Shown here one piece after another: positions 1 to 13,717 of a stretch of DNA of 13,864 nt. Below the pieces are notes generated by a model. The model searched no databases. It was not told the DNA's origin and saw only the letters and a program-made list of their open reading frames with translations. Position numbers and translations under genes: made by a program. The stretch covers positions 1-13,864 of the forward strand of contig JALRLA010000114.1 of the NCBI GenBank assembly GCA_023254645.1, in the 5' to 3' direction. Positions within the stretch are counted from its first letter, which is position 1; the number at the start of each line of letters is the position of its first letter. Source of the DNA: Bacteroidia bacterium. GTDB taxonomy: Bacteria > Bacteroidota > Bacteroidia > NS11-12g > UBA955.

Positions 1-1284
1 CGAGTCGACCAAGCCTTGGGTTCAAAAGCGCCCATTCAAAAATGGGTAGACAAGGTGGCTGCCATATTTGTCCCCGTGGTTATCGGCTTAGCCTTAGCTT
101 CCTTCTTGATCTGGACAATAGCATTTGGCAACAACCAACAAGGGCTGTTAGCCCTTATCAATGTCTTAATTATCGCCTGCCCCTGTGCATTGGGCCTGGC
201 CACCCCTACCGCTTTAACCGTTGGTCTAGGACATGCCGCCAGCCGCGGCATTCTGGTCAAAGACGCCGAGGCACTCCAACAAGCGGCTACCTTAACCGAT
301 TTAGTATTGGACAAAACCGGCACCCTGACCATCGGCCAACCTCAAGTTGTCGATGGCCTAAGTCGGAACAACCAAGCCGTATCCAGTTTGCTGTTTTCAC
401 TCGAAAAGCAATCCGAGCATCCGCTAGCAAAAGCCATCTTGGAAGGACTGAAAAATCCGCAACGAACCTGGGCCTCGCACGAAGCTCAGCCTTTGGACTT
501 GCTAGACTTGCGCGCTCAAAGAGGATTGGGCATGAGCGCAAGTTGGGAAGGGCATAGCGTGCACATCGGATCCTTGGAATACCTGTTGTCAAAAGGCTAT
601 TCTTTACCCGATGAATGGCAAGAAAAACGCAAACAATGGGAACAAGCGGGATACACCTTGGTCGCCCTTGGATACAACCATGACTTTTACGCCCTATTGG
701 CGATTGCCGATGCCCTCAAGCCCGAGGCCGCGGCCGTTTGCAAAGAATGGCAAAAACAGGGCTTAACCCTGCATTTGATGAGCGGCGACCAGCCCTTGGC
801 CGTCAAAGAAGCGGCCCAGAAATGCGGCATTACTCACTATCGAGGAGGCATGAAACCTGAAGACAAGGCACAATTTATCAAAGGTTTGCAAACCCAGAAT
901 AGGCAAGTCGGAATGGTGGGCGATGGCATCAACGATGCAGAATCATTGGCTCTGGCCCAAACCGGCTTTGCCATGGGTACGGGTACCGATCTGGCCAAAC
1001 AGAGCGCAGGCATTACACTGGTGACAGGTCAGCTAGAAGGCCTGTCAGAAACCCTATTCATATCCCGTCAAACCTTGCGCACCTTAAAACAAAACCTCGG
1101 TTGGGCTTTCGCATACAATGCATTGGCCATCCCCCTAGCCGCCGGTCTTTTCATTCCCCTATTCGGATGGACCTTAAACCCCATGGTGGCCGGTGCCGCT
1201 ATGGCCATGAGTTCGATCTCAGTTGTTTCCAATTCTCTGCGTTTGAGGCGAACTTTGCAAAAGCACCATGAAATACACCTTTAA
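1..1284 (+). CDS. copA: Cu(I)-exporting P1B-type ATPase, 3' part (5' end outside window)
   Basis: This is the C-terminal part of a heavy-metal P-type ATPase that exports Cu(I) from the cytoplasm using ATP. The frame is open from base 1, so the N-terminal metal-binding domain and first helices lie off the left edge. Counting from base 1, I see the membrane CPC metal site at residues 60-62 (bases 178-186), the phosphorylation motif DKTGTLT with its Asp at bases 310-312, the P1B hallmark SEHP (His-Pro near residues 140-141) and the hinge GDGIND near residues 307-312. The last two membrane helices carry the Tyr-Asn pair (FAYNALA) and the MSSISVVSNSLRLRR signature. Together with CPC these are the known ligand set of the P1B-1 (Cu+) subgroup, so copper is favoured over Zn/Cd. 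The stop codon overlaps the following metal-binding gene by 17 nt, so the two are probably co-transcribed and translationally coupled. Confidence 0.95.
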   Translation, partial: RVDQALGSKAPIQKWVDKVAAIFVPVVIGLALASFLIWTIAFGNNQQGLLALINVLIIACPCALGLATPTALTVGLGHAASRGILVKDAEALQQAATLTDLVLDKTGTLTIGQPQVVDGLSRNNQAVSSLLFSLEKQSEHPLAKAILEGLKNPQRTWASHEAQPLDLLDLRAQRGLGMSASWEGHSVHIGSLEYLLSKGYSLPDEWQEKRKQWEQAGYTLVALGYNHDFYALLAIADALKPEAAAVCKEWQKQGLTLHLMSGDQPLAVKEAAQKCGITHYRGGMKPEDKAQFIKGLQTQNRQVGMVGDGINDAESLALAQTGFAMGTGTDLAKQSAGITLVTGQLEGLSETLFISRQTLRTLKQNLGWAFAYNALAIPLAAGLFIPLFGWTLNPMVAGAAMAMSSISVVSNSLRLRRTLQKHHEIHL

Positions 1285-1477
1285 AACCAATATCAATTGC
1301 GGCGGATGCATCGCCTCGGTAACGCCTGCCTTGAATCAAATTGACGAAATTGAATCCTGGAGCGTTGACACCGAGAATCCCGAGAAAATCCTGAGCGTAG
1401 AATTGGAAGATGAAGCTGATGCCCAGTGCGTAATAGACGCTGTGTCTTCAGCCGGATTCCGCATCGAACCGGCATGA
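1268..1477 (+). CDS. Small heavy-metal-associated (HMA) domain protein, CopZ-like
   Basis: This 69-residue protein is essentially one HMA ferredoxin-like domain, the fold used by copper chaperones. The metal site is CGGC at residues 11-14 (context TNINCGGCIASV). The usual Met two residues before the first Cys is Ile here. The C-terminal SSAGFRIEPA matches the closing strand of the fold (usually 'aGy.'). It has no signal peptide, so it should be cytosolic. It starts inside the end of the copper ATPase gene (17-nt overlap), which suggests it delivers Cu(I) to that pump or acts as its missing or extra metal-binding domain. Its TGA overlaps the ATG of the GH53 gene (ATGA at 1474-1477). The domain call is firm. 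Copper specificity and a chaperone role are inferred from the neighbour. Confidence 0.88.
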   Translation: MKYTFKTNINCGGCIASVTPALNQIDEIESWSVDTENPEKILSVELEDEADAQCVIDAVSSAGFRIEPA

Positions 1478-2607
1478 GATTACTGCTAGCCCTTCTGGTG
1501 ACAGCCCTGCTGTTCTTGCCCGCTTGCAAGGAGGAGCCTGTTCCCAGCCCTCCTGATCACCCCTATTACACGGGGCTTGATTTGTCCTATCAATCATTTT
1601 TAGCAGACAAAAATGTAGGCTACCAAACGGCTAAAGGAACTCCCATTTCCGACCTGTTTGGCTTTGCCCAAGATCAGGGTTGCAACCTGCTGCGGTTTCG
1701 GCTGTTCCACAACCCGGTGGGCAATGGCGACCCCATCATTGAAGCCGCTCAATTGGACTCCGTTCGAGCCTTGGCCCGTCGCGCAGCAGCCTTGGGAATC
1801 CCCTATTTGCTCGACTTCCATTACAGCGACAAGTGGGCCGACCCGGCTCAACAGAGCAAACCCAAGGCCTGGGAAAACACCTTGTACGAGGAATTGCAAG
1901 ACAGCCTGTACCGCTACACGCTTCGAGTTTTGCAGGTTTTGGATGACGAATTCATTGGGCCTCAATTTGTCCAATTGGGCAACGAAACAAACGCCGGATT
2001 TTTATGGGAAGCCGGCCGAACAGGCAATGCTCTGCAGTGGAAAGCCTTTGCCGGCCTTGTATCTGCGGCCAGCAAAGCCGTTCGCGATTTCAATACCATT
2101 CGCGGCCAAGGTGTTCGAATTGTACTCCATCACTCAAACCCCAATCAAGCCAAAGACTTCTACGATCATGTCAAAGAAGAAGGCATTGACTTTGACATCG
2201 TAGGATTGAGCTACTACCCCAAATGGCATGGCACCGACATGGGCCAACTTAAAAACAGCTTAGAAACTTTGGTCGTGTCCTATGGCAAGCCCATCCTCAT
2301 TTTGGAAACCTTTTATCCATTTACCTTAAGCTGGAACGATTGGACCAACAACGAAATCGGCATGGAAGAACAACTGGTTCCAGGCATTCCTGCTACCCCG
2401 GAAGGCCAAATGAAATTCATGGACAGCTTGTGCCAAATCGTGTACGACCTGCCCAATCAGAAAGGCTGGGGAGTCATTTACTGGGCCCCAGATTTTGTAG
2501 CCTTCGATGGCCCACAGTCGAGCAAAGGCTCTGCTTTTGAAAACATCGCTTTGTTTGATTTCGACAACAAAGCCACTCCTGCTTGGGAGGTGTTCAAGCG
2601 TTTCTGA
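1474..2607 (+). CDS. GH53 arabinogalactan endo-beta-1,4-galactanase, lipoprotein
   Basis: This is a 377-residue glycoside hydrolase of family 53, which cleaves beta-1,4-galactan side chains such as those of pectic arabinogalactan. The frame is open upstream to 1426, but I choose the ATG at 1474. It gives a proper lipoprotein signal (MRLLLALLVTALLFLPAC, lipid Cys 18) and forms an ATGA overlap with the preceding stop. Cys is followed by Lys-Glu-Glu, resembling the acidic surface-export signals of Bacteroidota lipoproteins, so surface display is likely. Family marks: GLDLSY near 34, DFHYSDKWADP at 114-124, the acid/base Glu 171 in QLGNETN, and the probable nucleophile Glu 278 in LILETFYPFT. The length is typical for a single-domain GH53, with no added binding module. 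Its link to copper genes is positional only. The 3' end overlaps the convergent crtY-blh gene by 14 nt. Confidence 0.93.
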   Translation: MRLLLALLVTALLFLPACKEEPVPSPPDHPYYTGLDLSYQSFLADKNVGYQTAKGTPISDLFGFAQDQGCNLLRFRLFHNPVGNGDPIIEAAQLDSVRALARRAAALGIPYLLDFHYSDKWADPAQQSKPKAWENTLYEELQDSLYRYTLRVLQVLDDEFIGPQFVQLGNETNAGFLWEAGRTGNALQWKAFAGLVSAASKAVRDFNTIRGQGVRIVLHHSNPNQAKDFYDHVKEEGIDFDIVGLSYYPKWHGTDMGQLKNSLETLVVSYGKPILILETFYPFTLSWNDWTNNEIGMEEQLVPGIPATPEGQMKFMDSLCQIVYDLPNQKGWGVIYWAPDFVAFDGPQSSKGSAFENIALFDFDNKATPAWEVFKRF

Positions 2608-4564
2608 ACTTGTTGTAAAACCGATGCATGGCCCAGACATGCGGAAAGCTCAAGCAGGAGAGAAAAATGAAGAACGGGGCTGCCCATTGAAAGGCATCTT
2701 CTGAATGACCGCTAGGCCATATCCACAGGAACAATCCCAGTAATACCCAAGCCCCTAGGTGAAAAGGCAAGGACTGTTTCCAAACCCAAATAGAAGAACG
2801 TTTCATGCGTTGAGTGATGTGCTTCCATCCGTTCCAACTGTGATGGCCAATGAAATACAATCCGAAGGCAATCAACAAGGGCAACCATGAGGACAAACTG
2901 AGCCATACCAAGGTCCAAGCCCAAGATAAGTTTCTCTCTTTAACAGCCACAGGCAACCAAAGTAACAGCAGCCAGGGGCTAAGGGAAAGGGACCACGGTT
3001 CTCCGCTCAACAACTGAATGATGGCCGATGATTCTTCGCTGTGGGTACCCAATAAAAAGAATAAAACCGATGCTCCCCAAGCCAAGGAACGAGGGCCCGA
3101 CCAAGACCATGTTTCTCCATCTGCTTGGCCAAAATGCCAAGCCGAATAAATCAAGAACAAGCCCAACCCGACAACGGGAAACAAGTACCAAATTCCAGCC
3201 AATACCAAGGCTTTTCCTATGTATTCCACTATAAAAGCTGGGAGTTTGGATGGTCTCAATGTGCCCGTCTCTAAGATATGATCAACCGCACCGTGCGGCA
3301 GCCCTATCAAGGCTAGCCCAAATACCCCTAATATGGCGGCACCCAATCCCTGCCAACTTGGAACCCAACCTAGGGCCAAAAAGCTCAGGGTGAGGAGGGT
3401 GACCACCATGGCTTGAAGGGTATTCGAATGATAGAAAGCAATGGCCCTCATGAACGGAGCCCAAGGCAAGCGCACCAGCATGTGGAGCTCATTTTTTAGG
3501 CTCATCTTTTCATCCAAAAACCGAAAAACGGACTCAGGACTTTGGGTAGCAAATAGCCGCTCGAAAATGGGTTTCCCTTGTTCGGGCTCTTTTTCCAAAA
3601 TCCCTAACAACAACTTGTCATAAAACCCATGCCTTGGCTTGCGATTGAATGCAGGATATGAGGCCCGGAACCATTCATTCGCTGCTTTCTCCGACCATTC
3701 ATACATGGATTTGAACGCGTAGCCGGTACTGGGCTTGATCAATCCAGCTCGGGCCCCCAAATTCCAAACTTGTTCATGCCCCGATTCAGGCAAGCTCATG
3801 CTGCTCATGGGTATGCAGCCAAATTCTTTTTCTTGCACATGGACCTGACCGTAGTGCTGGAGAATATAGGCAGCCAATTCATTTTCAGCGTGGTTGCTAT
3901 TGATGCGCTCCTTCCCAAACCGCGTCAATTCCACAAGAGCTTCGTTTTCAGAAGTCGGCAAGACATAGACGAATTGAGTATTCCCTTCTTGGGGCACTTC
4001 AAAATCCATCATGGAGAACTTAGAGGGATCGAAGCAGGGCTTCAATGTCTGTATATGCCAACCCGCAAAGCTCTGCCATAAATGAACGTCATTTCTTCCC
4101 GGCTTTTGCCATTCAGGAGGACGGGAATCTAACACTCTTTTGCAGCGAATGCGTTGTCCGTCTATCTCCACCCAAGGCCCTTGTGAATCACTGCCAACGG
4201 CCGAAACTTCAGCCTTTTGAATCTGCCAATTTTCGCTAGCCGACAAGATTCGAATGTGATCATAGAGTTTGAGGCTGGAGACTCGGGCATACACTTGATT
4301 TTCCAAGCGTTTGGAAGGCTGCCCCGCTACCTCGATCGCCGACCATTGGTGACCGATGACCGCCTCCAAATGGTCCAAAATAGGATCATGGGTATTCGCC
4401 CAAAAGCAATAGGTTTTGTCATTCTTGAGCTTCAAATCTCCATCCAAAATCAAAACCCTGCATCCGCTAAGAAGCTGGCGGCGATGAAGAGCCATCAATA
4501 ACAAACTTGTTGAAGCTCCAGCCCCCACAAAAATGAAATCGTAAGTCAATGACTCTCTGCCCAT
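2594..4564 (-). CDS. crtY-blh: Lycopene beta-cyclase / beta-carotene 15,15'-dioxygenase fusion (CrtY-Blh)
   Basis: One 656-residue frame joins two consecutive enzymes of retinal synthesis. Residues 1 to about 378 are a CrtY-type lycopene cyclase: FAD-binding strand VGAGAST (13-19; the third Gly of GxGxxG is Thr), NDKTYCFW (48-55, cf. NDRTWCFW), SFAGWHIQT, MDFEVPQ and VYVLPTSENEALVE, and the late KPSTGYAF (277-284). From about 380 the protein becomes a polytopic membrane domain of the Brp/Blh family: GLPHGAVDH (421-429), SAWHFGQAD (474-482), GHHSWNGW (573-580) and SFPHVWAMHRFY (639-650), holding the His residues that bind iron in this family. The domain boundary is near base 3430. The expected reaction is lycopene to beta-carotene to two retinals at the membrane. 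Each half has about the usual full length (roughly 380 and 275), so neither looks truncated. No rhodopsin or other crt gene is in the window. It is divergent from ssrA, with 69 nt between them. Confidence 0.93.
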   Translation of the reverse strand: MGRESLTYDFIFVGAGASTSLLLMALHRRQLLSGCRVLILDGDLKLKNDKTYCFWANTHDPILDHLEAVIGHQWSAIEVAGQPSKRLENQVYARVSSLKLYDHIRILSASENWQIQKAEVSAVGSDSQGPWVEIDGQRIRCKRVLDSRPPEWQKPGRNDVHLWQSFAGWHIQTLKPCFDPSKFSMMDFEVPQEGNTQFVYVLPTSENEALVELTRFGKERINSNHAENELAAYILQHYGQVHVQEKEFGCIPMSSMSLPESGHEQVWNLGARAGLIKPSTGYAFKSMYEWSEKAANEWFRASYPAFNRKPRHGFYDKLLLGILEKEPEQGKPIFERLFATQSPESVFRFLDEKMSLKNELHMLVRLPWAPFMRAIAFYHSNTLQAMVVTLLTLSFLALGWVPSWQGLGAAILGVFGLALIGLPHGAVDHILETGTLRPSKLPAFIVEYIGKALVLAGIWYLFPVVGLGLFLIYSAWHFGQADGETWSWSGPRSLAWGASVLFFLLGTHSEESSAIIQLLSGEPWSLSLSPWLLLLWLPVAVKERNLSWAWTLVWLSLSSWLPLLIAFGLYFIGHHSWNGWKHITQRMKRSSIWVWKQSLPFHLGAWVLLGLFLWIWPSGHSEDAFQWAAPFFIFLSCLSFPHVWAMHRFYNKFRNA

Positions 4565-5039: not shown

Positions 5040-5097
5040 CGTTTGCCCCCACCAAGCCCAACCGAAGGATGGAAGCGAGGGTGGGGGCAAACGAAAA
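5036..5097. repeat. 18-bp perfect inverted repeat (26-nt spacer)
   Basis: TTTTCGTTTGCCCCCACC at 5036-5053 is repeated as its exact reverse complement at 5080-5097, with a 26-nt spacer. On either strand the transcript would form a strong hairpin; the outer A/T run gives a T tract after the stem only on the minus strand. It could be a reinforcing or bidirectional terminator, or a copy of a dispersed palindromic element. The GC-rich stretch to about 5200 (including GCGC-GAA-GCGC at 5101-5111) codes for nothing I trust. Confidence 0.8.
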
Positions 5098-5206
5098 CGA
5101 GCGCGAAGCGCCAGCCAGCGGGATGTAGGTACCACCCACTGGATTCGCCGAAGGCCGATAAGGCCGAGGCAATTCCGCCAACCTTATCAAACCCTGCCCG
5201 GCTCAA

Positions 5207-5229
5207 CTTCTTGTTTCTAATACAAGAAG
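5207..5229. promoter_or_regulatory. Palindrome overlapping the GH16 promoter, operator-like
   Basis: CTTCTTGT (5207-5214) and ACAAGAAG (5222-5229) are perfect 8-bp inverted arms with a 7-nt spacer. The left arm contains the TTG of the putative -33 element and the right arm ends 2 nt before the -7 box. A dimeric regulator bound here would control the GH16 gene. No regulator gene is nearby. Confidence 0.5.
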
Positions 5230-5239
5230 CCTATCTTTG
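5211..5239 (+). promoter_or_regulatory. Putative Bacteroidota promoter of the GH16 gene
   Basis: TTG (5211-5213), an 18-nt spacer and TATCTTTG (5232-5239) match the Bacteroidota pattern TTG-N17-23-TAnnTTTG. The box ends only 4 nt before the ATG at 5244, so the transcript would begin at or next to the start codon and could be leaderless. Confidence 0.55.
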
Positions 5240-5243
5240 GTTC

Positions 5244-6815
5244 ATGTTCCAGCGCTTCTTCGTATCACTGACGTTCTTGATCACGGCTTCATTTGGCCAA
5301 GCCCAATCGTTGCCCCTAACCTTCAACCAAGCCAACCATTCCTTTACCTCGTTTGGCGGTTGTCAGTTTTCGCGGGTATCTGACCCCTTGAGACCCAACA
5401 ATACGGTGGGTCAAATCAGCAATGCCGGTGGTGACATTTACGAAGGCGCCTTTTTGGACATCAATCCCAGCATAGACTTGGATAGTTCCAAAAAAGTTTA
5501 CCTCGAACTGCACAGCGACCTTCAAGACTCCTTTACTGTTCAAGTCAAATTGGAACAAAGCAACATTGGGCAACCCGATATTTACGTTCAAAAGCGCTAC
5601 AAATCCAGCACTTGGATCAAGGACTCCTTTGATTTCAGCCAGGCCTACCCCATCGGCATGAACGAACCCGTTGACGGCAAGGGCAAATACAAGCGCATCA
5701 CCCTTTTCCTGAATCCCGGAGTCAACAGCGCTGGAAACCTAGACATTGACAACATCTCCGCCTACACCGGTACCCCCAGCAGCAGTGGGAATGCCAAACT
5801 GTTCAGCCAATACGATTCTTTGGTTTGGCAAGATGAATTCAACCAAACTGGGGCCCTAAACTCTGACAATTGGCACTTCCAGGTCATTCCTCCCAACAAC
5901 GGAAGCTGGTTCAATAACGAAATACAGCACTATACCGACCGCACTCAAAACTCCGTTTGCGACGGCAATAGCTTGCACATCACGGCCCGCAAGGAAACCT
6001 ACACCTACCAAGGCAACACAAAAGAGTATACCTCAGCCCGCCTGAATTCCAAGTTTGCCTTTACCTATGGCCGTGTTGACGTGCGAGCCAAGTTGCCTGC
6101 TGGAAGCGGCATGTGGCCGGCCATTTGGACCTTGGGCACCAACATAGGGGAGACTGGCAATTACTGGGGTCGAGATGCCAACACCGTCGGATGGCCCAAG
6201 TGCGGAGAAATAGACATCATGGAAAGCTGGGGCCACAATCCGAACTACGTGTCTTCAGCCGTGCATACCCAAGCGCAATTCGGCAGCGTTCCCACAGGGG
6301 GCATGAAGCTGGACGATGCTTACAATCAATACCATCTGTATTCACTGGTTTGGACTCCGGAGCAACTGGTATTTTTCGTAGACAGCATCGAAACTTACGC
6401 CTACAAACCCAGCACCCAAAACGCTGATAACTGGCCCTTCACCAAAGATCAATACATCTTGTTAAATGTCGCCGTGCTGTCCTCTGTGGCCCAAAACTTT
6501 GATACAGCCCGCATGCAGGTTGATTTTGTTCGGGTCTACCAAAAAGGTCAAAAAACAACATCAAACTATAGCGATCAAGAAGCCTTGTTGGGCCATCCTT
6601 ATCCTAACCCTTGTTCAGGCAATCTGAATGTCGAGGAATGCCTAGGATCGCTGCCCCAACAGAATTTCTCCATTTGGTCTTCAACAGGAGCTCTCATCCA
6701 AACAGGAACCGCTTATGCCAGTAATCCTATCATTGACCTTGAGCACCTTGACACCGGATTGTACTACCTAGTATTCGAATCAGGAGCGCAGTATCAGTTT
6801 GCCTTAATGCCCTAA
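5244..6815 (+). CDS. Secreted GH16 beta-glucanase (laminarinase-like) with T9SS sorting domain
   Basis: This 523-residue secreted glycoside hydrolase of family 16 probably cuts beta-1,3- or mixed beta-1,3/1,4-glucans such as laminarin. The frame is open back to 5043, but that part is a translation of the repeat region. The ATG at 5244 gives a clean signal peptide, MFQRFFVSLTFLITASFGQA. Domains in order: residues 22-180, a beta-rich carbohydrate-binding-like module; 185-435, the GH16 catalytic domain opening with LVWQDEFN, with GEIDIMES holding nucleophile Glu 322 and acid/base Glu 327 and closing with MQVDFVRVYQK; about 447-523, a type IX secretion C-terminal domain (HPYPNPCSGNLNVE, LDTGLYYLVF). 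The protein should cross the outer membrane by T9SS and be released or anchored at the surface. The exact substrate within GH16 cannot be fixed by eye. The gene stands alone, with no SusC/SusD pair, and its stop overlaps the convergent gene by 4 nt. Confidence 0.93.
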   Translation: MFQRFFVSLTFLITASFGQAQSLPLTFNQANHSFTSFGGCQFSRVSDPLRPNNTVGQISNAGGDIYEGAFLDINPSIDLDSSKKVYLELHSDLQDSFTVQVKLEQSNIGQPDIYVQKRYKSSTWIKDSFDFSQAYPIGMNEPVDGKGKYKRITLFLNPGVNSAGNLDIDNISAYTGTPSSSGNAKLFSQYDSLVWQDEFNQTGALNSDNWHFQVIPPNNGSWFNNEIQHYTDRTQNSVCDGNSLHITARKETYTYQGNTKEYTSARLNSKFAFTYGRVDVRAKLPAGSGMWPAIWTLGTNIGETGNYWGRDANTVGWPKCGEIDIMESWGHNPNYVSSAVHTQAQFGSVPTGGMKLDDAYNQYHLYSLVWTPEQLVFFVDSIETYAYKPSTQNADNWPFTKDQYILLNVAVLSSVAQNFDTARMQVDFVRVYQKGQKTTSNYSDQEALLGHPYPNPCSGNLNVEECLGSLPQQNFSIWSSTGALIQTGTAYASNPIIDLEHLDTGLYYLVFESGAQYQFALMP

Positions 6816-7339
6816 AACAAGGGCGTACCGTTGATCAGGCGCTCTTCTTCGTACTTCATCTGTTCATCACGCAAAATGAAGTGAACGGCCACCTGATTTT
6901 GATTGACGACCTCGGCGATCAAATGCAAGTTTTGGAAAAAGGCCATTTGACCCCAATCAGCCCGGGCTTTTTTAGCCTTCTTATCCAAGGAATGCTCCAC
7001 CCAATGGCCGTAACGGGCTTCCAATTTGGCCACTTTGGCTTCAAAATCGATGGCCGCCTTTTTGAAATTCTTAACAGGGGTATGGTAAACCACCGCTTTC
7101 CAAACCCTGGTGCTGATGGGGGAAGAATGGATGTGAACGGTGACGGCGTCTCCGTTTAGCACACCCGTAACCACTCTCACAGAACCCTGATTGGGTTGAG
7201 AAACAAACCCGCGCTCCGAAACCAATCGAAGAGCCAAGGTATCGGGATGCCCCTTCATGTCGATCATGGCTATTCTCTGGGCCGACAAACTCGACACCCA
7301 AAGACTTAAAACCAATAGACCCGACCGAATCAAGCTCAT
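6812..7339 (-). CDS. Exported protein of unknown function, 175 aa
   Basis: I do not recognise a family. The N-terminus MSLIRSGLLVLSLWVSSLSA is a signal peptide with probable cleavage before Gln 21 and no lipobox, so the protein is likely periplasmic. The mature part is about 155 residues: a beta-prone first half (VRVVTGVLNGDAVTVHIHSS) and a charged, Lys/Ala/Glu-rich helical stretch (FKKAAIDFEAKVAKLEARYG, then LDKKAKKARADWG), then another beta stretch (VNQNQVAVHFILRDEQM). It is the last gene of a three-gene unit: its ATG overlaps the TGA of the DUF4249 gene (ATGA at 7336-7339), so translation is coupled to a TonB-receptor/lipoprotein pair, and a role in the same uptake or surface process is inferred. 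Its stop overlaps the GH16 stop by 4 nt from the other strand. Confidence 0.8.
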   Translation of the reverse strand: MSLIRSGLLVLSLWVSSLSAQRIAMIDMKGHPDTLALRLVSERGFVSQPNQGSVRVVTGVLNGDAVTVHIHSSPISTRVWKAVVYHTPVKNFKKAAIDFEAKVAKLEARYGHWVEHSLDKKAKKARADWGQMAFFQNLHLIAEVVNQNQVAVHFILRDEQMKYEEERLINGTPLF

Positions 7340-8193
7340 GGATAAATTTCTCCTTGTATCAGCGTGTAGGAACCCAAAAAGCCCAAAGCCCCTTTACTCA
7401 TAGATGAGTGAAACAAAATGGGTTCTTGGAAGGGGTTGTTTTCGTTTTGGTACTGGGTCTCAAAAAAGGCCTTGTAGTTCTCGTCTACGATCCACAAGGT
7501 CCCGGCGATGAATTGAAAGCTGGGATCAGCCGTACCGTATTCACCAAATTGCGACTCTCCGAACAACTTGTAGGGCGCTCCTGTTCCACCGGCAAGGCCG
7601 CTGTTGTTGAACCACATGTTTTCTTCGTACAATCCGAAAGGCCCGTCTTCCAACAAGGCCATAAACTCGGCAAACAGGTATTCATTTTCCGCAAAATCGC
7701 CTTTGTAATTCAGCTGCAAACTGAAGGGCCAATACACATAGCCCCAGTTGGACTGGCGTTTATCACCCATGCTCCAACTGACAATTTTCAGGTCATCCAA
7801 CTTGGGCTGAGGGGGAACGGTGGTGCTGCTGGAACAGGCGAATCCGCCGGGGAGTTCCACCCGCATGGTATAACGGTGACCCGGTTCGATGGGAAGCGAA
7901 GCCGCATTCACTGCATAGACTCCGTTGGCTTGGTGAGCCAATGAAACCGAGGCACCTGATCCTTCATCGGTGATCGAAACTTTGGCATCGTAAATGCGCT
8001 CAGCCGTATCCTGGTACTTTCCAAAATAGGGAACTGTATAGGACAACTCGGCCTTTATCAGGGCGTCAGAAGGAGAAATGTAGGAGATCAAAACCGGCTG
8101 TTTGACAAAGGCCGGCGGGTCCAGTTCCGTGTCGCGCTCACATGAAGCGAGCAATAGCGCCATGGCGGGTACAATCAATTTTATGGCTTTCAT
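7336..8193 (-). CDS. DUF4249 family lipoprotein, partner of TonB-dependent receptor
   Basis: This 285-residue lipoprotein resembles DUF4249, a Bacteroidota family typically encoded just after a TonB-dependent receptor. MKAIKLIVPAMALLLASC is a lipoprotein signal with lipid Cys 18, followed by ERDTELDPP, an acidic stretch compatible with surface export. The mature domain is beta-rich: PVLISYISPSDALIKAELSYT near the N-terminus, then a module with DAKVSITDEGSG and GHRYTMRVELPGG, then aromatic-rich strands including YVYWPFSLQLNY. The family has no established biochemical function; a surface ligand-binding or lid role with the receptor is an inference by analogy with SusD-like partners. Only 1 nt separates its ATG from the receptor stop, and its own stop overlaps the next gene, so the three are surely one transcript. 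Confidence 0.82.
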   Translation of the reverse strand: MKAIKLIVPAMALLLASCERDTELDPPAFVKQPVLISYISPSDALIKAELSYTVPYFGKYQDTAERIYDAKVSITDEGSGASVSLAHQANGVYAVNAASLPIEPGHRYTMRVELPGGFACSSSTTVPPQPKLDDLKIVSWSMGDKRQSNWGYVYWPFSLQLNYKGDFAENEYLFAEFMALLEDGPFGLYEENMWFNNSGLAGGTGAPYKLFGESQFGEYGTADPSFQFIAGTLWIVDENYKAFFETQYQNENNPFQEPILFHSSMSKGALGFLGSYTLIQGEIYP

Positions 8194-8194
8194 A

Positions 8195-10585
8195 TCAACG
8201 GAATTTATAGCTGTAACTGATGGAAGGAATCAAGGGGAACAAGGTCACTTTTTTCAATTTGGTTTCGTTGCCTTCGCTGGCCCCGTAATAGAAAAATGGA
8301 TTGAATCGGTTGTAGGCATTGTAGCAGCCAATTTCAATCGTTTGGCGGGCTTTCTTTTTCTCCTTGGAGTATTGCAAACCCACATCCAATCGGTGGTAGG
8401 CCTCCATGCGGAAGTCGTTGCGCTTGCCGTAGTCGATGTATCGACCCTGCCAGCTGTTCAAGGGGTCCCACAAACTGGCATAGGCATCGGGGATGTGGCT
8501 GGTACCAAAAATTTGGCCCTGGGGCATGGTGATGGAGTTACCCGTACCATAGACCCATGTGGCCGAGAAGGTCAAATCAGGGGTGATGCGGTAGATTCCG
8601 ACTACAGAAATATCGTGGCGGCGGTCGTAACGGGCAAAGAAGGGATCTCCTTGGTTGATTTCGTCAAATTGCATCTGTGTCCAACTCAAGGTATAGCCTA
8701 CCCATCCGCTGAACTGGCCTTGCTGCTTTTGCAAGAACAATTCTCCGCCATAGCTCCAAGCTCGACCATCGGTGACTTGCTTTTCCCAGGCCTTATTGTC
8801 AGTCGGTGCATTTTGATCGAACAAATCATCGTTGACAATGAAGCTCGCCCCCTCTTTGTATTGGATCACGTTGCTCATGGTCTTGTAATACCCTTCTGCA
8901 CTCAGGGAAAATCCTTTTTTGAAATCTTTGGCCAAGCCAGCGGCACCCTGTTGGCTGCGCATGGGCTTAACATTGGTGGTAGCCGGCACCCACAAATCAG
9001 TGGGAAGACCAATGCCTGAACTGCTCAGCAGGTGAATGTACTGGTTCATGATGGCATAACTGGTCTTGAACGACAAATCCTTTTTGATGCTGTAGGCCAC
9101 CGAAACACGCGGTTCGGGGTTCAAGTACTGGGTTTGATCAACGGCGTAATGACTCAAGCGAAATCCAGGGTATAGGTTCACCCGACCCAAGCGCCACTTG
9201 TCTTCGATGTACAAGCCACTTTCGTACGAACGAATGGTTTTGAGCGCGCGCTCAAAGTTCGTGGTTTGACCCACGGTGATATCCAAAACCACGGCACTGG
9301 GATCGAATTGGTGCATGGTCGTGGAAGCTCCGTAACGAACCATGTGTTGGTTGTTGGGGCGCCAATCGATATCGTATTTGGCCCCAATGTCATTGATGGT
9401 ACTGGAGTACTTCAAATCAAAAGTTTGGTTGTCTTCTTTGCTCAATACGTTGATGCCCAAATCGTAATGGGAATAGATTAGCGAAGCATTGCCGAAGGTG
9501 CGCCCATTGAATTGGTGATTCCAACGGGTGGTCAAGGTCTGGTTGCCCCATCCGAAGTTGGTTTTGAGCTGATATTCGGGCTGCTTGTCGTTGAAATAGA
9601 ATTTGTCGCGGCCAAAATACCCCGATACAAACAACTTGTCTTTTTCGCTCAATTCGTAGTTGAACTTGGCGTTTAAGTCATAGAAATAGTAACCCAAATT
9701 GGAACCACCCGAAGCGGCCATCACCAAGGGCTGTATCAAGGCATCCAAATAGGTTCGTCGCGCCGAGATCATAAACGAACTCTTGCCCTTGACAATAGGT
9801 CCTTCTACCAAGCCGCGGGCAGAAATAAGACCGATACCCGCTTCGGAATTGAAATGTTCCTTGTTACCCTCTTTCATGGTCATTTCTATGACCGATGACA
9901 AACGCCCGCCGTAGCGAGCCGGAAAACCGCCTTTCACCAGCTCCACACTTCGAAGTGCATCGCCGTTGAACAATGAAAAGAAACCGAAGAGATGGTTGGC
10001 GTTGTACACGGTGGCTTCGTCCAAAATCAATAAATTCTGGTCAGGCCCGCCTCCTCGAACATAAATACCGCTCTGTCCTTCACCCCCTTTTTGCACGCCG
10101 GGAAGCAATTGAATCACTTTCAATACATCTTTCTCACCCAGCAAGGCCGGAATGTCCTTGATGTCTTGGGTAGGAATGCTGATGCGGCTCATGTCGGCCT
10201 TGTCGGCAATGGTGTTTCGGTTGGCGATGATTTCCACTTCCTCAATTCGCTGAGAGATGCCCATTCGCACCGACACCGAACTATCGGCCGAGGCCGTCCA
10301 AATGAAATTCTGTGTTTCGAAACCCGAGAAACGAACGCTAATGAACACGGGCTGTCCTTCGGGCGCACTCAAAGAGAAAAATCCATAGCTGTTCGACTGG
10401 GTCAGAGCTGCCTCAGCCGCCGAAGTATCGCCAAAAGGGCGCATGGCTACGGAAACATTTCCCAGCATTTCCCCGCTGCCTGATTCTCGTATGTAACCTG
10501 AAAGGGAAACCTGTTGGGCCATGAGACCGGAAACACCCATTCCCGTGCACAGCATTGCGGTTTTCCAAATTGAATTGAATTGCAC
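8195..10585 (-). CDS. TonB-dependent receptor with carboxypeptidase-like N-terminal domain
   Basis: This 796-residue outer-membrane receptor takes up a ligand with energy from TonB. The start is GTG at 10585: the frame is closed by a TAA four codons upstream, and the first in-frame ATG (residue 11) would leave too short a signal peptide. Signal peptide 1-23 (ending GLMA); a carboxypeptidase-regulatory-like beta domain at about 26-108 (SLSGYIRESGSGEMLGNVSV); the plug at about 115-235 with IPALLGEKDVLKVIQLLPGV, YVRGGGPDQNLLILDEA and FPARYGGRLSSVIEM; the 22-strand barrel from about 250, ending in the typical aromatic-containing C-terminus YSYKFR. It is shorter than SusC-type glycan receptors (about 1000 aa) and has no SusD neighbour, so a sugar substrate is not implied. 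It is the first gene of the unit with DUF4249 and the 175-aa exported protein. Confidence 0.95.
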   Translation of the reverse strand: MQFNSIWKTAMLCTGMGVSGLMAQQVSLSGYIRESGSGEMLGNVSVAMRPFGDTSAAEAALTQSNSYGFFSLSAPEGQPVFISVRFSGFETQNFIWTASADSSVSVRMGISQRIEEVEIIANRNTIADKADMSRISIPTQDIKDIPALLGEKDVLKVIQLLPGVQKGGEGQSGIYVRGGGPDQNLLILDEATVYNANHLFGFFSLFNGDALRSVELVKGGFPARYGGRLSSVIEMTMKEGNKEHFNSEAGIGLISARGLVEGPIVKGKSSFMISARRTYLDALIQPLVMAASGGSNLGYYFYDLNAKFNYELSEKDKLFVSGYFGRDKFYFNDKQPEYQLKTNFGWGNQTLTTRWNHQFNGRTFGNASLIYSHYDLGINVLSKEDNQTFDLKYSSTINDIGAKYDIDWRPNNQHMVRYGASTTMHQFDPSAVVLDITVGQTTNFERALKTIRSYESGLYIEDKWRLGRVNLYPGFRLSHYAVDQTQYLNPEPRVSVAYSIKKDLSFKTSYAIMNQYIHLLSSSGIGLPTDLWVPATTNVKPMRSQQGAAGLAKDFKKGFSLSAEGYYKTMSNVIQYKEGASFIVNDDLFDQNAPTDNKAWEKQVTDGRAWSYGGELFLQKQQGQFSGWVGYTLSWTQMQFDEINQGDPFFARYDRRHDISVVGIYRITPDLTFSATWVYGTGNSITMPQGQIFGTSHIPDAYASLWDPLNSWQGRYIDYGKRNDFRMEAYHRLDVGLQYSKEKKKARQTIEIGCYNAYNRFNPFFYYGASEGNETKLKKVTLFPLIPSISYSYKFR

Positions 10586-10765: not shown

Positions 10766-11440
10766 ATGAACGAAATTCTGCAACAAGCCGAGCTGATCTC
10801 AGCCCTCAATTACGTCAACTGGTCACTGGGCTTTGCCCTATTGCTGCTCTATACCTGGGTCTTCCAAGTCGCCTTCAAACGCTACGCCTTGGTGGTCAGC
10901 AACCGCGATTTGTTCGCTTCCAATTTCTACTACTACGCCATTTCCATCTTTTTGATCATCACCACCATCAAGAGTTCCTTGGCCCTGTCATTGGGATTGG
11001 TGGGTGCCTTATCGATCATTCGTTTCCGAACCGCCATCAAGGAACCCGAGCAAATCATTTACCTATTGGGACTCACGGCTATTGCCATTTCCTTGGCGGC
11101 CGAACAGTTCATCATTTCCACTTTCTGCGTGGCCATCTATGTGATCGTCGCTTTCACCCGAAGCAAGCGATCTTCTCAGTATTCTTCGTTTGCCACCGAT
11201 TACCTGATGATTCAGTTGGCTGAAGCCGACGCCTCATCCGTTCAGGCATTCATGAAACACATGGAGGCCCAAGATTGGACCGCTAGCTTGTTGAACTACG
11301 AGCAACAGTCAACTCAAGGGGTGCGCTTGTTGTACAAACTGCGCAACGCCAATCCTGAGAGCATTGCAGAGGTAAACGCTCAGTTGAAGGCCCATTCTTT
11401 GACCGCTCATTCGGTGAAACTCAGCGCTTCAAACGCCTAA
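10766..11440 (+). CDS. DUF4956 family membrane protein
   Basis: This 224-residue protein matches the DUF4956 family, whose signature is clearly present: SLGLVGALSIIRFRTAIKEP at residues 75-94. It has about five hydrophobic segments: roughly 21-37, 54-68, 71-85, 98-112 and 116-130, followed by a soluble C-terminal domain of about 90 residues (DYLMIQLAEADASSVQAF onward) that looks like a small alpha/beta regulatory fold. It has no cleavable signal peptide. No biochemical function is established for the family. In many bacteria its genes sit beside VTC-type polyphosphate polymerases and CotH-like proteins, and that arrangement is found here: the CotH-like gene begins 3 nt after this stop, in the same reading frame. 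It is the first gene of the cassette, directly after the divergent intergenic region. Confidence 0.88.
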   Translation: MNEILQQAELISALNYVNWSLGFALLLLYTWVFQVAFKRYALVVSNRDLFASNFYYYAISIFLIITTIKSSLALSLGLVGALSIIRFRTAIKEPEQIIYLLGLTAIAISLAAEQFIISTFCVAIYVIVAFTRSKRSSQYSSFATDYLMIQLAEADASSVQAFMKHMEAQDWTASLLNYEQQSTQGVRLLYKLRNANPESIAEVNAQLKAHSLTAHSVKLSASNA

Positions 11441-11443
11441 GAC

Positions 11444-13717
11444 TTGCAACTGCGCAATTCCCATACCCCCAAACCGGGATTCTTGCTCCTGGCTTGGGCC
11501 GCAGCCATCCTTCTTCTCGACTGGGTCAGTTGGGCCAAATTTGGCGTGCATCTTCCTGCCGTCTTGGAAAAGGTCTACCACAACGACAACCGTGATTTTC
11601 GGCATTTGAACGAGGCTACGCTCTCCCATTACGTTTGGGAAAAAGGTCAGGTAGCCGTAAAAGACACCTTGCGCATTGACATGCCGGAACTCGAATACCA
11701 ATCCATGATTGGCGAGTGGAGAAAGACCTTCCGAAACGATCATTTCATGGGCCGCGAAGAACCTTGGCTGGAGAAAAAAGGCAAGTACAAGGCCCGAGTC
11801 AAGCACAACATCTCCGACAACAAATGGCACAGTTGCAAACTGTCCATGACCGGGATGCACCGCGACCACCACGGGGATTTGAACCGATTTTCCATCAAGC
11901 TCAAACTCAAAGGAGAAGACCGTTTATTCGGTGGAAAGGCCGTCAATTTGCTGGTGCCTGAGTCCCGTGGATTCATCGTCGATTGGTGCGCCAATCAGGT
12001 CTTCGCCCAGCAATTTGGAGGCCTCGAAATTCATTATACGCCCGTTATGGTTCAGGTGCGAAAGCAGCTACCGGTCATGCTGCTTCGAGAAGAGAATTTG
12101 GACAAGTTTGTCATAGAGGGGAACCGCAGACGAGAATCCATCTTGTTTGAAAAAGGCTACAAAGGGCCGCTCAAAGACATTGAGGGATTGAAAGCCCAAA
12201 ACATCGATTTTGAGGTCAACTCTGGCTTGGATGACAGCAGCCGTCAGGCCGCCATTATGAACGAGGCTTCCCGCCTTTTCAATCAAGGTGGTCCTGAACT
12301 GTTCGAGGCCATTGACGAGAAACTCATGCTGGGGGCTTTGGGGGCTGGACTGGCCTTTGGGTCTTGGCACCATTTGGTAGACATCAATCTGCACTGGTAT
12401 TACAACCCGGTGAACAACCGATTTGAGCCCAGCGTGCGCGAGGTCATGGCCGATCCCTCAGGCGTATACCAGGACATTGGAGCCCCCCAAGCCTGGCCTT
12501 GGAAAGAGCGCCAACGCCATTACCGGAACTACTTTGCCGAACTTCACCGCCGCGGCTTTGATTTGGCTCCCGACTATTTTGCTTACATGTTGGAGCGAGA
12601 TGGAGAACTCGCCTACATCAAATTGGATAAAGCCTTGCAAACCTGGGCCAAAGGTCTTCAACAGGTGCTTCAGGATTCTTCCATGCAGCAAGCCTCGCAT
12701 CAATACTACGGATACTGGGGCCGAAGAACACGCTATGTGCAACACGAGTTGTTGGGCCGCGCCCAGAACTTGCTGCAATCTTTCCAGACCCACCCTTGTC
12801 CCGAGGCGGAGTCGGTGGCCGCTGAAACGATCACTTGGCGCGGCCGCCTCGCCATTGATCAAGATTTCGTACTCAAACCCCATCAAACGTTGATCATTCA
12901 ACCCGGTACCCAAGTTCGATTGAGCCAAAACGCCCATTTGATATGGTATGGAGAAGTTCATGCCATGGGCACAGCCAGTCAGCCCATCGTCATCGAAGCC
13001 GAGGAAGGCAGCCACAGTAGTGGTTTCATGGAGCATACCCAAGGCCATTGCGAATGGCACTATGTGCACATTAAGGGTCTCTCCAGTTTTAGCAAAGGCA
13101 TTTGGAAAACACCGGCTGCCTTTACGGTTCACGCTACCCCCAATTTGATCATGGATGGCGGCTGGTTCCATGACAACAAAACCGGCGATGACATGATCAA
13201 CCTCTTTGGCTGCCAGGACTTCAGCATGACAGGCTGCCGATACGAGAAGACCTTGTCAGATGCCTTTGACAGTGATTTCTCATCGGGCTTGGTCGATGCC
13301 TGCACCTTTGTACAAGTGGGCAATGACGGGGTGGATGGTTCGGGCTCTACCATCGACATTTTAAATTCCGAATTTGACGGAATCAGCGACAAAGCCATCA
13401 GCTCGGGCGAACGGAGTCACTTTTTTGCCCAAGGCAACCGCATTAGAAATGCCGAGCTTGTTTTCGTAGCCAAAGACCAAAGTGTTTTGAAGGTGGCCCA
13501 AAATGATTTCACTGGCAACAAACTGGACTTCGCGGTCTTTCAAAAGAAGCCCGAATACGGCCCAGCGCGCATAGAGTTCACGGGCAACCTCACGCAATTC
13601 AGCGGCTTGTTCCAAAACGGGTCTGAGATCCAACATACTGGACCAGCCATGAAAACAGTCAAAAACGTCGAAGATTTGCTCTACGGCAATATGTATGGAA
13701 AGGCGACCGTAAAATGA
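11444..13717 (+). CDS. CotH-like protein fused to a right-handed parallel beta-helix
   Basis: This is a 757-residue membrane-anchored protein. A single hydrophobic helix lies at about 12-29 (FLLLAWAAAILLLDWV) with no clear cleavage site. Residues about 75-460 resemble the CotH spore-coat kinase family: RFSIKLKLKGEDRLFGG, then SRGFIVDWCANQVFAQQFGG, VMLLREENLDKFVIE, and NLHWYYNPVNNRFEPS. The usual WDxD-like acidic motif after this last block is not visible (VREVMAD instead). Residues about 465-735 are a parallel beta-helix with 21-23-residue rungs and stacked aspartates. The first in-frame ATG is at residue 80, inside the fold, so I take the TTG at 11444, 3 nt after the DUF4956 stop. Its TGA overlaps the ATG of the VTC gene (ATGA). 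CotH kinases phosphorylate proteins on Ser; activity here is uncertain. The domain call is good; the function is unknown. Confidence 0.82.
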   Translation: MQLRNSHTPKPGFLLLAWAAAILLLDWVSWAKFGVHLPAVLEKVYHNDNRDFRHLNEATLSHYVWEKGQVAVKDTLRIDMPELEYQSMIGEWRKTFRNDHFMGREEPWLEKKGKYKARVKHNISDNKWHSCKLSMTGMHRDHHGDLNRFSIKLKLKGEDRLFGGKAVNLLVPESRGFIVDWCANQVFAQQFGGLEIHYTPVMVQVRKQLPVMLLREENLDKFVIEGNRRRESILFEKGYKGPLKDIEGLKAQNIDFEVNSGLDDSSRQAAIMNEASRLFNQGGPELFEAIDEKLMLGALGAGLAFGSWHHLVDINLHWYYNPVNNRFEPSVREVMADPSGVYQDIGAPQAWPWKERQRHYRNYFAELHRRGFDLAPDYFAYMLERDGELAYIKLDKALQTWAKGLQQVLQDSSMQQASHQYYGYWGRRTRYVQHELLGRAQNLLQSFQTHPCPEAESVAAETITWRGRLAIDQDFVLKPHQTLIIQPGTQVRLSQNAHLIWYGEVHAMGTASQPIVIEAEEGSHSSGFMEHTQGHCEWHYVHIKGLSSFSKGIWKTPAAFTVHATPNLIMDGGWFHDNKTGDDMINLFGCQDFSMTGCRYEKTLSDAFDSDFSSGLVDACTFVQVGNDGVDGSGSTIDILNSEFDGISDKAISSGERSHFFAQGNRIRNAELVFVAKDQSVLKVAQNDFTGNKLDFAVFQKKPEYGPARIEFTGNLTQFSGLFQNGSEIQHTGPAMKTVKNVEDLLYGNMYGKATVK

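Follow-up and report, generated by a model that had tools for sequence, protein, structure and literature searches.

In uncultured aquatic Bacteroidota, a lycopene cyclase (CrtY, a flavoprotein) and a beta-carotene 15,15'-dioxygenase (Blh), both full-length, share one frame, which has 656 codons in the gene described here. The product is probably a single membrane-anchored bifunctional enzyme that converts lycopene to retinal, forming a dedicated retinal line beside a separate pigment line and having arisen once. The gene lies in the window, the whole 13,864-nucleotide stretch of DNA that was analysed, on the minus strand from an ATG at 4564 to a stop at 2594; the original prediction had given it without a strand. 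The features are as follows.

2594..4564, minus strand: crtY-blh fusion gene (protein P0001), an open frame of 656 codons
3443..4540, minus strand: lycopene cyclase (CrtY) half, residues 9–374, with E212 (ALVELT) and E247 (ExGxIPM) kept
3320..3442, minus strand: junction, residues 375–415, helices in the AlphaFold2 model, dN/dS 0.118 against the genome L002
2624..3319, minus strand: Blh half, residues 416–647, PF15461 and TIGR03753
4565..4633, no strand: gap of 69 bp between the fusion gene and a divergent tmRNA gene, the putative place of the fusion promoter

Domain architecture and selection

The proposal that CrtY and Blh occupy one 656-codon frame with no linker is confirmed by the open reading frame, the Pfam domains and the helices of the AlphaFold2 model (pLDDT 88.9, pTM 0.83). 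In this model, the last CrtY helix (residues 368–378) passes directly into the helix that opens the Blh half (380–398), so that "no linker" holds. It is very improbable that the single chain is later cut in two or that an internal start yields free Blh as well, given that the model shows no disordered linker and that no conserved internal Met was found in residues 355–420, where the commonest occurs in 26% of 57 sequences (GTG and TTG starts left out).

Both halves are full-length and keep their family motifs, as predicted, according to the PF05834, PF15461 and TIGR03753 matches and the invariant residues. In the CrtY half, PF05834 (Lycopene_cycl) covers residues 9–374 and profile positions 1–378 of 380 (E = 4.6e-49; 167.9 bits against a cut-off of 23.4). 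Scores against the NCBIfam models were 114.7 bits for TIGR01790 (cut-off 209.5) and 64.7 for TIGR01789 (cut-off 215.2); because five stand-alone Bacteroidota CrtY controls reach only 69–91 for TIGR01790, these cut-offs do not discriminate here. Seven residues, E212, E247, P252, M253, K277, G281 and D316, whose catalytic role is putative, are 100% conserved across 93 fused and 57 separate CrtY sequences. The Blh half matches PF15461 (BCD) over residues 416–647 (E = 1.2e-31; 110.8 bits against a cut-off of 28) and scores 127 bits for TIGR03753, above the cut-off of 95.25, with two stand-alone controls at 149 and 185. H424, D428, Y448, H477, H575 and H642 are invariant in all 66 Bacteroidota Blh rows (49 fused, 17 stand-alone); in the larger set, H642 is gapped in 2 of 93 fused rows (L069 and L108), both cut by contig ends. 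Among solved structures, fold matches were obtained for the CrtY half only, and sequence searches found no relative for the Blh half. A marine Blh was reportedly characterised by Kim in 2009. The CrtY half is predicted to convert lycopene to beta-carotene, and the Blh half to cleave beta-carotene to retinal.

Two genomes of the same genus encode a one-frame homologue at 87% and 68% identity, which excludes the frameshift or stop named in the original prediction as grounds for rejection. Against the nearer genome (L002), dN/dS is 0.100 for CrtY, 0.118 for the junction and 0.073 for Blh; against the farther one it is 0.203 for the junction and 0.062 for Blh, CrtY giving no ratio owing to saturated dS. 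These ratios indicate that purifying selection is acting on both halves.

Distribution and origin of the fusion

Domain searches combined with a search across genomes, as had been proposed, found the fusion to be clade-specific. It is whole and in frame in 37 of the 97 genomes searched, the window's own counted, and in 39 if two genes cut by contig ends are included. Among the 40 fused-clade genes of these genomes, 37 are whole, three are cut by contig ends (G018, G047 and G091) and none is split. G091 was counted as fused clade by identity, outside the trees; a split of its gene was considered and rejected, the contig ending inside the gene. A scan of named genomes confirmed 402 relatives, and the best 80 of these all carry the one-frame fusion, a selection that biases these loci towards full-length fusions; contig ends truncate some of them, and the set overlaps with the 97 genomes (L051 is G002). 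Both domains are present in all 120 protein clusters among the matches listed (1,278 matches from 7,999 candidates scored).

The window belongs to a 424-contig draft, which makes an assembly or frameshift artefact conceivable. However, the full-length one-frame protein recurs in 36 other genomes and in the best 80 of the 402 named relatives, and the 120 two-domain clusters agree with this; an artefact or a lost stop in the window is thereby refuted, and its probability is negligible. Relatives outside the window's genus also carry the fusion, and its confinement to that genus was rejected. No fusion was found in the viral_contigs set, the best viral fold match was a separate lycopene cyclase of ChoanoV1, and a search for stand-alone Blh on plasmids gave no match.

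Once duplicates and short fragments had been discarded, 123 fused loci left 93 non-redundant fusions, which form one clade in the CrtY tree and in the Blh tree. Two loci labelled "separate" in one tree (L046 and L050) are in fact fusions that run off the end of the retrieved locus, and the "3 changes" there amount to one. Given this single clade in both domain trees, the trees indicate that the fusion had one origin. In other Bacteroidota, crtY and blh are separate neighbouring genes of rhodopsin/retinal clusters; they belong to the same families, follow the same order (crtY then blh) and serve the same pathway, but they encode two proteins, and in each tree the fusions group apart from them as a clade. 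This comparison used 20 unfused genomes picked for close spacing of the two genes, and the separate pair also occurs in genus g6. The fusion probably derives from such an adjacent pair.

The single origin and the adjacent pair in the same order are also consistent with a neutral event, in which the stop between co-transcribed genes was lost once and then inherited, both activities working and the tether giving only equal dosage. In G219, where a second, independent fusion was suggested by a full-length profile match and then rejected, crtY and blh are two genes in the same frame with a single TGA between them, which also favours this account. Against it, 37 of the 40 fused-clade genes are whole, three are cut by contig ends and none is split, a retention that fits selection without proving it. 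Such a neutral history is a real possibility, if a somewhat doubtful one, and it concerns why the two genes are fused rather than what the protein does.

Carotenoid genes and a second cyclase

All 39 fusion genomes carry crtB and crtI-family genes, and 38 carry a crtZ-like gene. The fused Blh is the only Blh in 37 of them (G059 has a second copy, and in G018 the gene is cut before the domain), and no RPE65-type enzyme (PF03055) was found in any of the 39. Likewise, no other full-length CrtY (PF05834) was found in these genomes. From PF05834 alone, the fusion had been regarded as the cell's only lycopene cyclase, its beta-carotene thus being shared with CrtZ. This interpretation was withdrawn, as a PF18916 search covering the fusion genomes identified CrtYc/d, a membrane lycopene cyclase unrelated to CrtY, in 36 of the 39. 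The window genome's copy (C93:1237–1878) passes both PF18916 and TIGR03462, and CrtYc/d directly adjoins crtZ in 9 of 11 fusion genomes of family f2. This free CrtYc/d is expected to catalyse the same reaction as the CrtY half but belongs to an unrelated family and is not fused to Blh. Its presence in 36 of the 39 fusion genomes suggests that the pigment branch has its own cyclase. The original prediction that carbon is channelled to retinal apart from pigment thus gains support at the level of gene content, with CrtYc/d in 36 and crtZ in 38 of the 39, and a split into a retinal line and a pigment line is proposed.

A second cyclase in 36 of the 39 genomes would also allow only one half of the protein to be active, for example a CrtY remnant attached to a Blh that cuts beta-carotene made by CrtYc/d. 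This is quite improbable, since the family-invariant CrtY residues are kept in all 93 fusions, the CrtY-half dN/dS is 0.100, and neither a replacement Blh nor an RPE65-type enzyme occurs in 37 of the 39 genomes (G059 having another Blh and G018 being cut). Alternatively, both halves may work while much of the beta-carotene leaves the fusion for CrtZ, so that retinal and zeaxanthin would both come from it. The crtZ-like gene in 38 of the 39 genomes agrees with such a shared supply, and CrtYc/d was not found with PF18916 in G043, G050 or G086, all three of which have crtZ. G043 and G050 are 96% and 98% complete, and the fusion may feed pigment too in those two genomes; in G086, 200 bp separate the crtZ gene from the end of its contig. 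Nevertheless, the 36 genomes with CrtYc/d, and its adjacency to crtZ in 9 of 11 genomes of family f2, make a shared supply rather unlikely in general. Two cyclases in one cell are no proof of two lines; their beta-carotene may mix in the membrane.

Association with rhodopsin

The proposed search for a rhodopsin and crtEBI in the same genome found a proton-pump rhodopsin in 35 and crtB and crtI in all 39 of the fusion genomes, but no rhodopsin in the window's own assembly. The contig leading to the expected site in that 424-contig draft stops about 1.5 kb short, and the gene may lie beyond this end; both same-genus genomes encode a rhodopsin. The four fusion genomes in which none was found are G000, G040, G050 and G053. 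In 24 of the 39 genomes, the rhodopsin lies at most 420 bp upstream of the fusion, 18 on the same strand and 6 divergent. It adjoins the fusion in 51 of the 80 named loci (the best 80 of 402 relatives), and 21 of these 80 have no rhodopsin although their sequence extends 1 kb or more to either side. PF01036 matches were found in 59 of the 97 relatives and in none of 14 control genomes. Of the 58 genomes with Blh or a cut fusion, 54 have a rhodopsin, compared with 5 of the 39 that have neither (p = 1.9e-16 by Fisher's test, genomes treated as independent).

According to PMC13093654, Kin4B8 and the Salinibacter xanthorhodopsin have an antenna-carotenoid fenestration with a glycine. This glycine is shared by the rhodopsins studied here, occurring in all 86 aligned rows, which comprise the query and 85 rows left from 114 phmmer matches after identical and short ones were dropped; for 57 of the 85, a fused gene is present at the locus as well. 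However, whereas those two proteins are xanthorhodopsins (PMC13093654), the G002 rhodopsin best matches solved proteorhodopsins (9jov, E = 3.3e-91), and carotenoid binding here is putative.

Comparison with known fusions

Searches of the open-licence PubMed Central literature revealed no CrtY-Blh fusion from bacteria. A four-domain CrtI-CrtB-CrtYc/d-Blh protein of Thecamonas trahens, found by sequence search, likewise combines a lycopene cyclase and a C-terminal Blh in one chain, as described in PMC10016063. Unlike the bacterial fusion, it is eukaryotic, has four domains and uses a membrane-type CrtYc/d, the enzyme that in the bacterial fusion genomes is a separate second cyclase. The same source describes the trifunctional crtIBY protein of thraustochytrids, which is stated there to be essential in Aurantiochytrium limacinum; it similarly unites consecutive carotenoid steps but is given there without Blh and with a CrtYc/d-type cyclase.

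Proposed function and implications

In the preferred reading of one bifunctional enzyme, lycopene from CrtB and CrtI would supply both lines. The N-terminal CrtY half would close the rings of lycopene at the membrane surface to yield beta-carotene, and the C-terminal membrane Blh half would cut this centrally into two retinals for the proton-pump rhodopsin, often encoded by a neighbouring gene. In parallel, CrtYc/d and then CrtZ would produce zeaxanthin, which could plausibly serve that rhodopsin as an antenna. We infer that beta-carotene could be handed over directly between the halves. More tentatively, the tether may act as a metabolic partition, in which one cyclase is committed to retinal formation as part of the cleaving enzyme, the Blh half taking beta-carotene within the membrane and the fusion possibly contacting the rhodopsin, while the other cyclase makes zeaxanthin as a possible antenna.

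Sources name the fusion either "lycopene beta-cyclase" or "Brp/Blh" among the matches listed. As such names cover one half only, surveys that give each gene a single name may overlook crtY or blh. The single-chain enzyme would be a ready part for bacterial retinal production. Furthermore, a tethered and a free cyclase of unrelated families in one cell are natural material for testing whether linkage within one protein commits a shared, very hydrophobic intermediate to a single product; if the partition is true, the chromophore and the antenna of one light-driven pump would come from two separate lines. Rhodopsin phototrophy needs retinal, and in 37 of the 39 fusion genomes of uncultured aquatic Bacteroidota no retinal-forming enzyme other than the fusion was found. 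Retinal appears to be made by one fused protein in an arrangement that is widespread among these bacteria.

The fusion gene and its neighbourhood

As the original prediction had held, CrtY and Blh lie in one frame. Profile searches matched residues 9-374 to lycopene cyclase PF05834 (E 4.6e-49) and residues 416-647 to beta-carotene dioxygenase PF15461 (E 1.2e-31), both halves being members of known families. The fusion also exceeded the cut-off of the NCBIfam Blh family TIGR03753 (127 against 95.25 bits). Its score for the lycopene cyclases of TIGR01790 was 114.7, below the cut-off of 209.5, which is non-discriminating here because five stand-alone Bacteroidota CrtY scored just 69-91. The window's features are as follows.

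1-1284, plus strand: P-type ATPase, C-terminal part (PF00122, PF00702), cut at the window start
1426-2607, plus strand: glycosyl hydrolase family 53 gene, its end overlapping the fusion gene end by 14 bp
4564 to 2594, minus strand: crtY-blh fusion gene, single open frame of 656 codons
4634-5008, plus strand: tmRNA gene (ssrA) with tag GESNYAMAA, oriented divergently to the fusion gene across a 69-bp gap
5043-6815, plus strand: glycosyl hydrolase family 16 protein ending in a type IX secretion sorting tail (profile matches)
7336-10585, minus strand: TonB-dependent receptor plug protein adjoining a DUF4249 gene
10766-13717, plus strand: DUF4956 protein, then a 757-aa protein (weak beta-helix match, below cut-off)

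The true start of the glycosyl hydrolase family 16 protein is probably later than the first TTG, and the DUF4956 and 757-aa proteins may form one unit. Genome G002 is collinear with the window across 5.1 kb; in G001 (locus L003), no glycosyl hydrolase family 53 gene separates the fusion from the nearby P-type ATPase gene.

In a structure model of the fusion built from a 57-sequence input (mean pLDDT 88.9, pTM 0.83), the final CrtY helix (368-378) continues into the helix that opens the Blh half (380-398), and the halves are therefore joined without a linker, as originally described. Residues G416, H508, E511 and W580 are invariant or nearly so in fused but not in stand-alone Blh, and the same holds for R148, Q197 and R215 in fused as against stand-alone CrtY; judged by conservation, these are candidate contacts between the halves.

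Distribution and origin of the fusion

The original prediction had left the wider occurrence of the fusion to a search across genomes, which found it whole and in one frame in 37 of 97 (the window's own counted) and cut by a contig end in G018 and G047. Both same-genus genomes carry it, at 68% and 87% identity. Among the best 80 of 402 relatives in named genomes, some of them end-cut by a contig, all 80 were single frames of 652-731 codons from stop to stop. In a collection of 5.8 billion protein sequences, both domains were present in all 120 listed of 1,278 hits, which their sources name 'lycopene beta-cyclase' or 'Brp/Blh'. A phylum-wide draw yielded the fusion in 5 of 395 genomes (the window's own counted), in families f1, f8 and f25. 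G219 was rejected as a sixth full-length case; its crtY and blh (L183, G219:C45) are two genes sharing a frame that one TGA interrupts, possibly a picture of the pre-fusion state.

Trees were built from 150 CrtY and from 132 Blh sequences, and in each the 93 non-redundant fusions formed one clade (SH-aLRT 99 and 98, respectively); two rows labelled 'separate', L046 and L050, are end-cut fused genes. Unfused relatives can carry blh after crtY; 20 such pairs were fetched, picked for the closeness of the two genes. Close relatives in genus g6, from the window's family (L135, L138, L140, L142, L143, L148, L152, L154-L156), have separate crtY and blh that overlap or abut, and the full rhodopsin match sits on a different contig. 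Of 40 fused-clade genes, none was seen to be split. The simplest history is a single fusion event out of an adjacent crtY-blh pair.

No bacterial CrtY-Blh fusion was found in the open-licence literature searched. Among the published architectures that we saw, the nearest, in excerpts of PMC10016063, comes from the protist Thecamonas: a CrtI-CrtB-CrtYc/d-Blh protein with a cyclase not of the CrtY type, as in the fusion, but of CrtYc/d, an unrelated membrane-type family. The CrtY-Blh fusion is real and old; it is widespread, arose once and goes by the name of one half.

A second lycopene cyclase in the fusion genomes

The fusion was the sole full-length PF05834 match in the 39 fusion genomes (37 whole, two end-cut), no other match reaching beyond 128 of the 380 positions. 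The reading of it as the cell's only lycopene cyclase is overturned by CrtYc/d (PF18916; two domains per frame, 227-286 aa), found in 36 of the 39 and not in G043, G050 or G086; in the last, crtZ lies 200 bp from a contig end. CrtYc/d immediately adjoins crtZ in 9 of 11 family-f2 genomes, and the order in G073 is crtI-crtB-crtZ-crtYcd. The window's genome (G000) carries:

G000:C93:1237-1878 (L239:1213-1908), minus strand in L239: CrtYc/d, 232 aa, over the PF18916 and TIGR03462 cut-offs
G000:C173:5926-8612: crtZ, crtI and crtB in a row

This crtZ passed no family cut-off; it has histidine motifs that we take to be typical of CrtZ, and its homologues in f2 genomes exceed the PF04116 cut-off. A crtZ-like gene occurs in 38 of the 39 genomes (G006 being without).

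An ECF-type sigma factor gene precedes the window genome's CrtYc/d on the same strand, and CrtYc/d has neighbours of similar appearance in the four other f1 stretches fetched (L241-L244). Elsewhere (L170:8400-9272, G065:C1), a MerR-type regulator with a B12-binding domain, matching CarH weakly and below cut-off, adjoins crtI-crtB-crtZ-crtYcd; light control of the pigment branch is possible there.

In 37 of the 39 genomes there is no Blh besides the fusion. The exceptions are G018, whose contig ends before the Blh domain, and G059, where a second, stand-alone Blh immediately follows a rhodopsin on a contig other than the fusion's (L229, G059:C2). RPE65-type enzymes were found in none of the 39, the same search matching 2 of 14 control genomes.

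Rhodopsins

The companion genes that the original prediction had looked to proved common, with crtB and crtI-family genes in all 39 fusion genomes and a rhodopsin in 35. In 24, the rhodopsin lies upstream of the fusion at a distance of no more than 420 bp (18 on the same strand, six divergent). Across the 97 genomes, a rhodopsin was present in 54 of 58 with Blh or a cut fusion versus 5 of 39 without (Fisher p 1.9e-16, ignoring kinship). Among the 80 named loci kept as the best of 402 relatives, a rhodopsin was adjacent in 51 (same strand, 40 upstream and nine downstream; two upstream on the opposite strand), absent in 21 whose flanks each extend for at least 1 kb, and undecidable in eight. None was found in the window's own draft genome (1.92 Mb, 424 contigs, 90% complete); this absence is not evidence because the matching contig stops 1.5 kb short of the rhodopsin position in G002.

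All 86 aligned rhodopsin rows (85 from fused and unfused genome loci, plus the query) share the triad DTE, Met at the tuning position and a helix E glycine, which aligns over a Trp of 4jq6. We take the triad to indicate a proton pump and the Met green absorption.

Proposed division of lycopene

Two lines would draw on the lycopene made by CrtB and CrtI. In the retinal line, the CrtY half, a surface flavoprotein, would carry out ring closure, and its product would be cut to retinal by the Blh half tethered to it; in the pigment line, free CrtYc/d would close the rings before hydroxylation by CrtZ. With CrtYc/d present in 36 of 39 genomes, pigment synthesis is served by a cyclase of its own, which leaves the fused CrtY free for retinal alone. 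This comes close to the channelling of carbon to retinal originally proposed. Through its tether the fusion would direct beta-carotene into cleavage, more or less strictly since the membrane pool may mix; where CrtYc/d is missing, it may supply both lines. As to why the genes are fused, a serious rival is a neutral fusion whose sole effect would be equal dosage. Under the two-line scheme, the branches could meet again at the rhodopsin. In xanthorhodopsins, according to excerpts of PMC13093654, the helix E glycine opens a window giving carotenoids access to retinal, and hydroxylated xanthophylls, zeaxanthin among them, bind to Kin4B8. Zeaxanthin made by CrtYc/d and CrtZ could therefore serve as antenna to the very rhodopsin that the fusion would supply with retinal.
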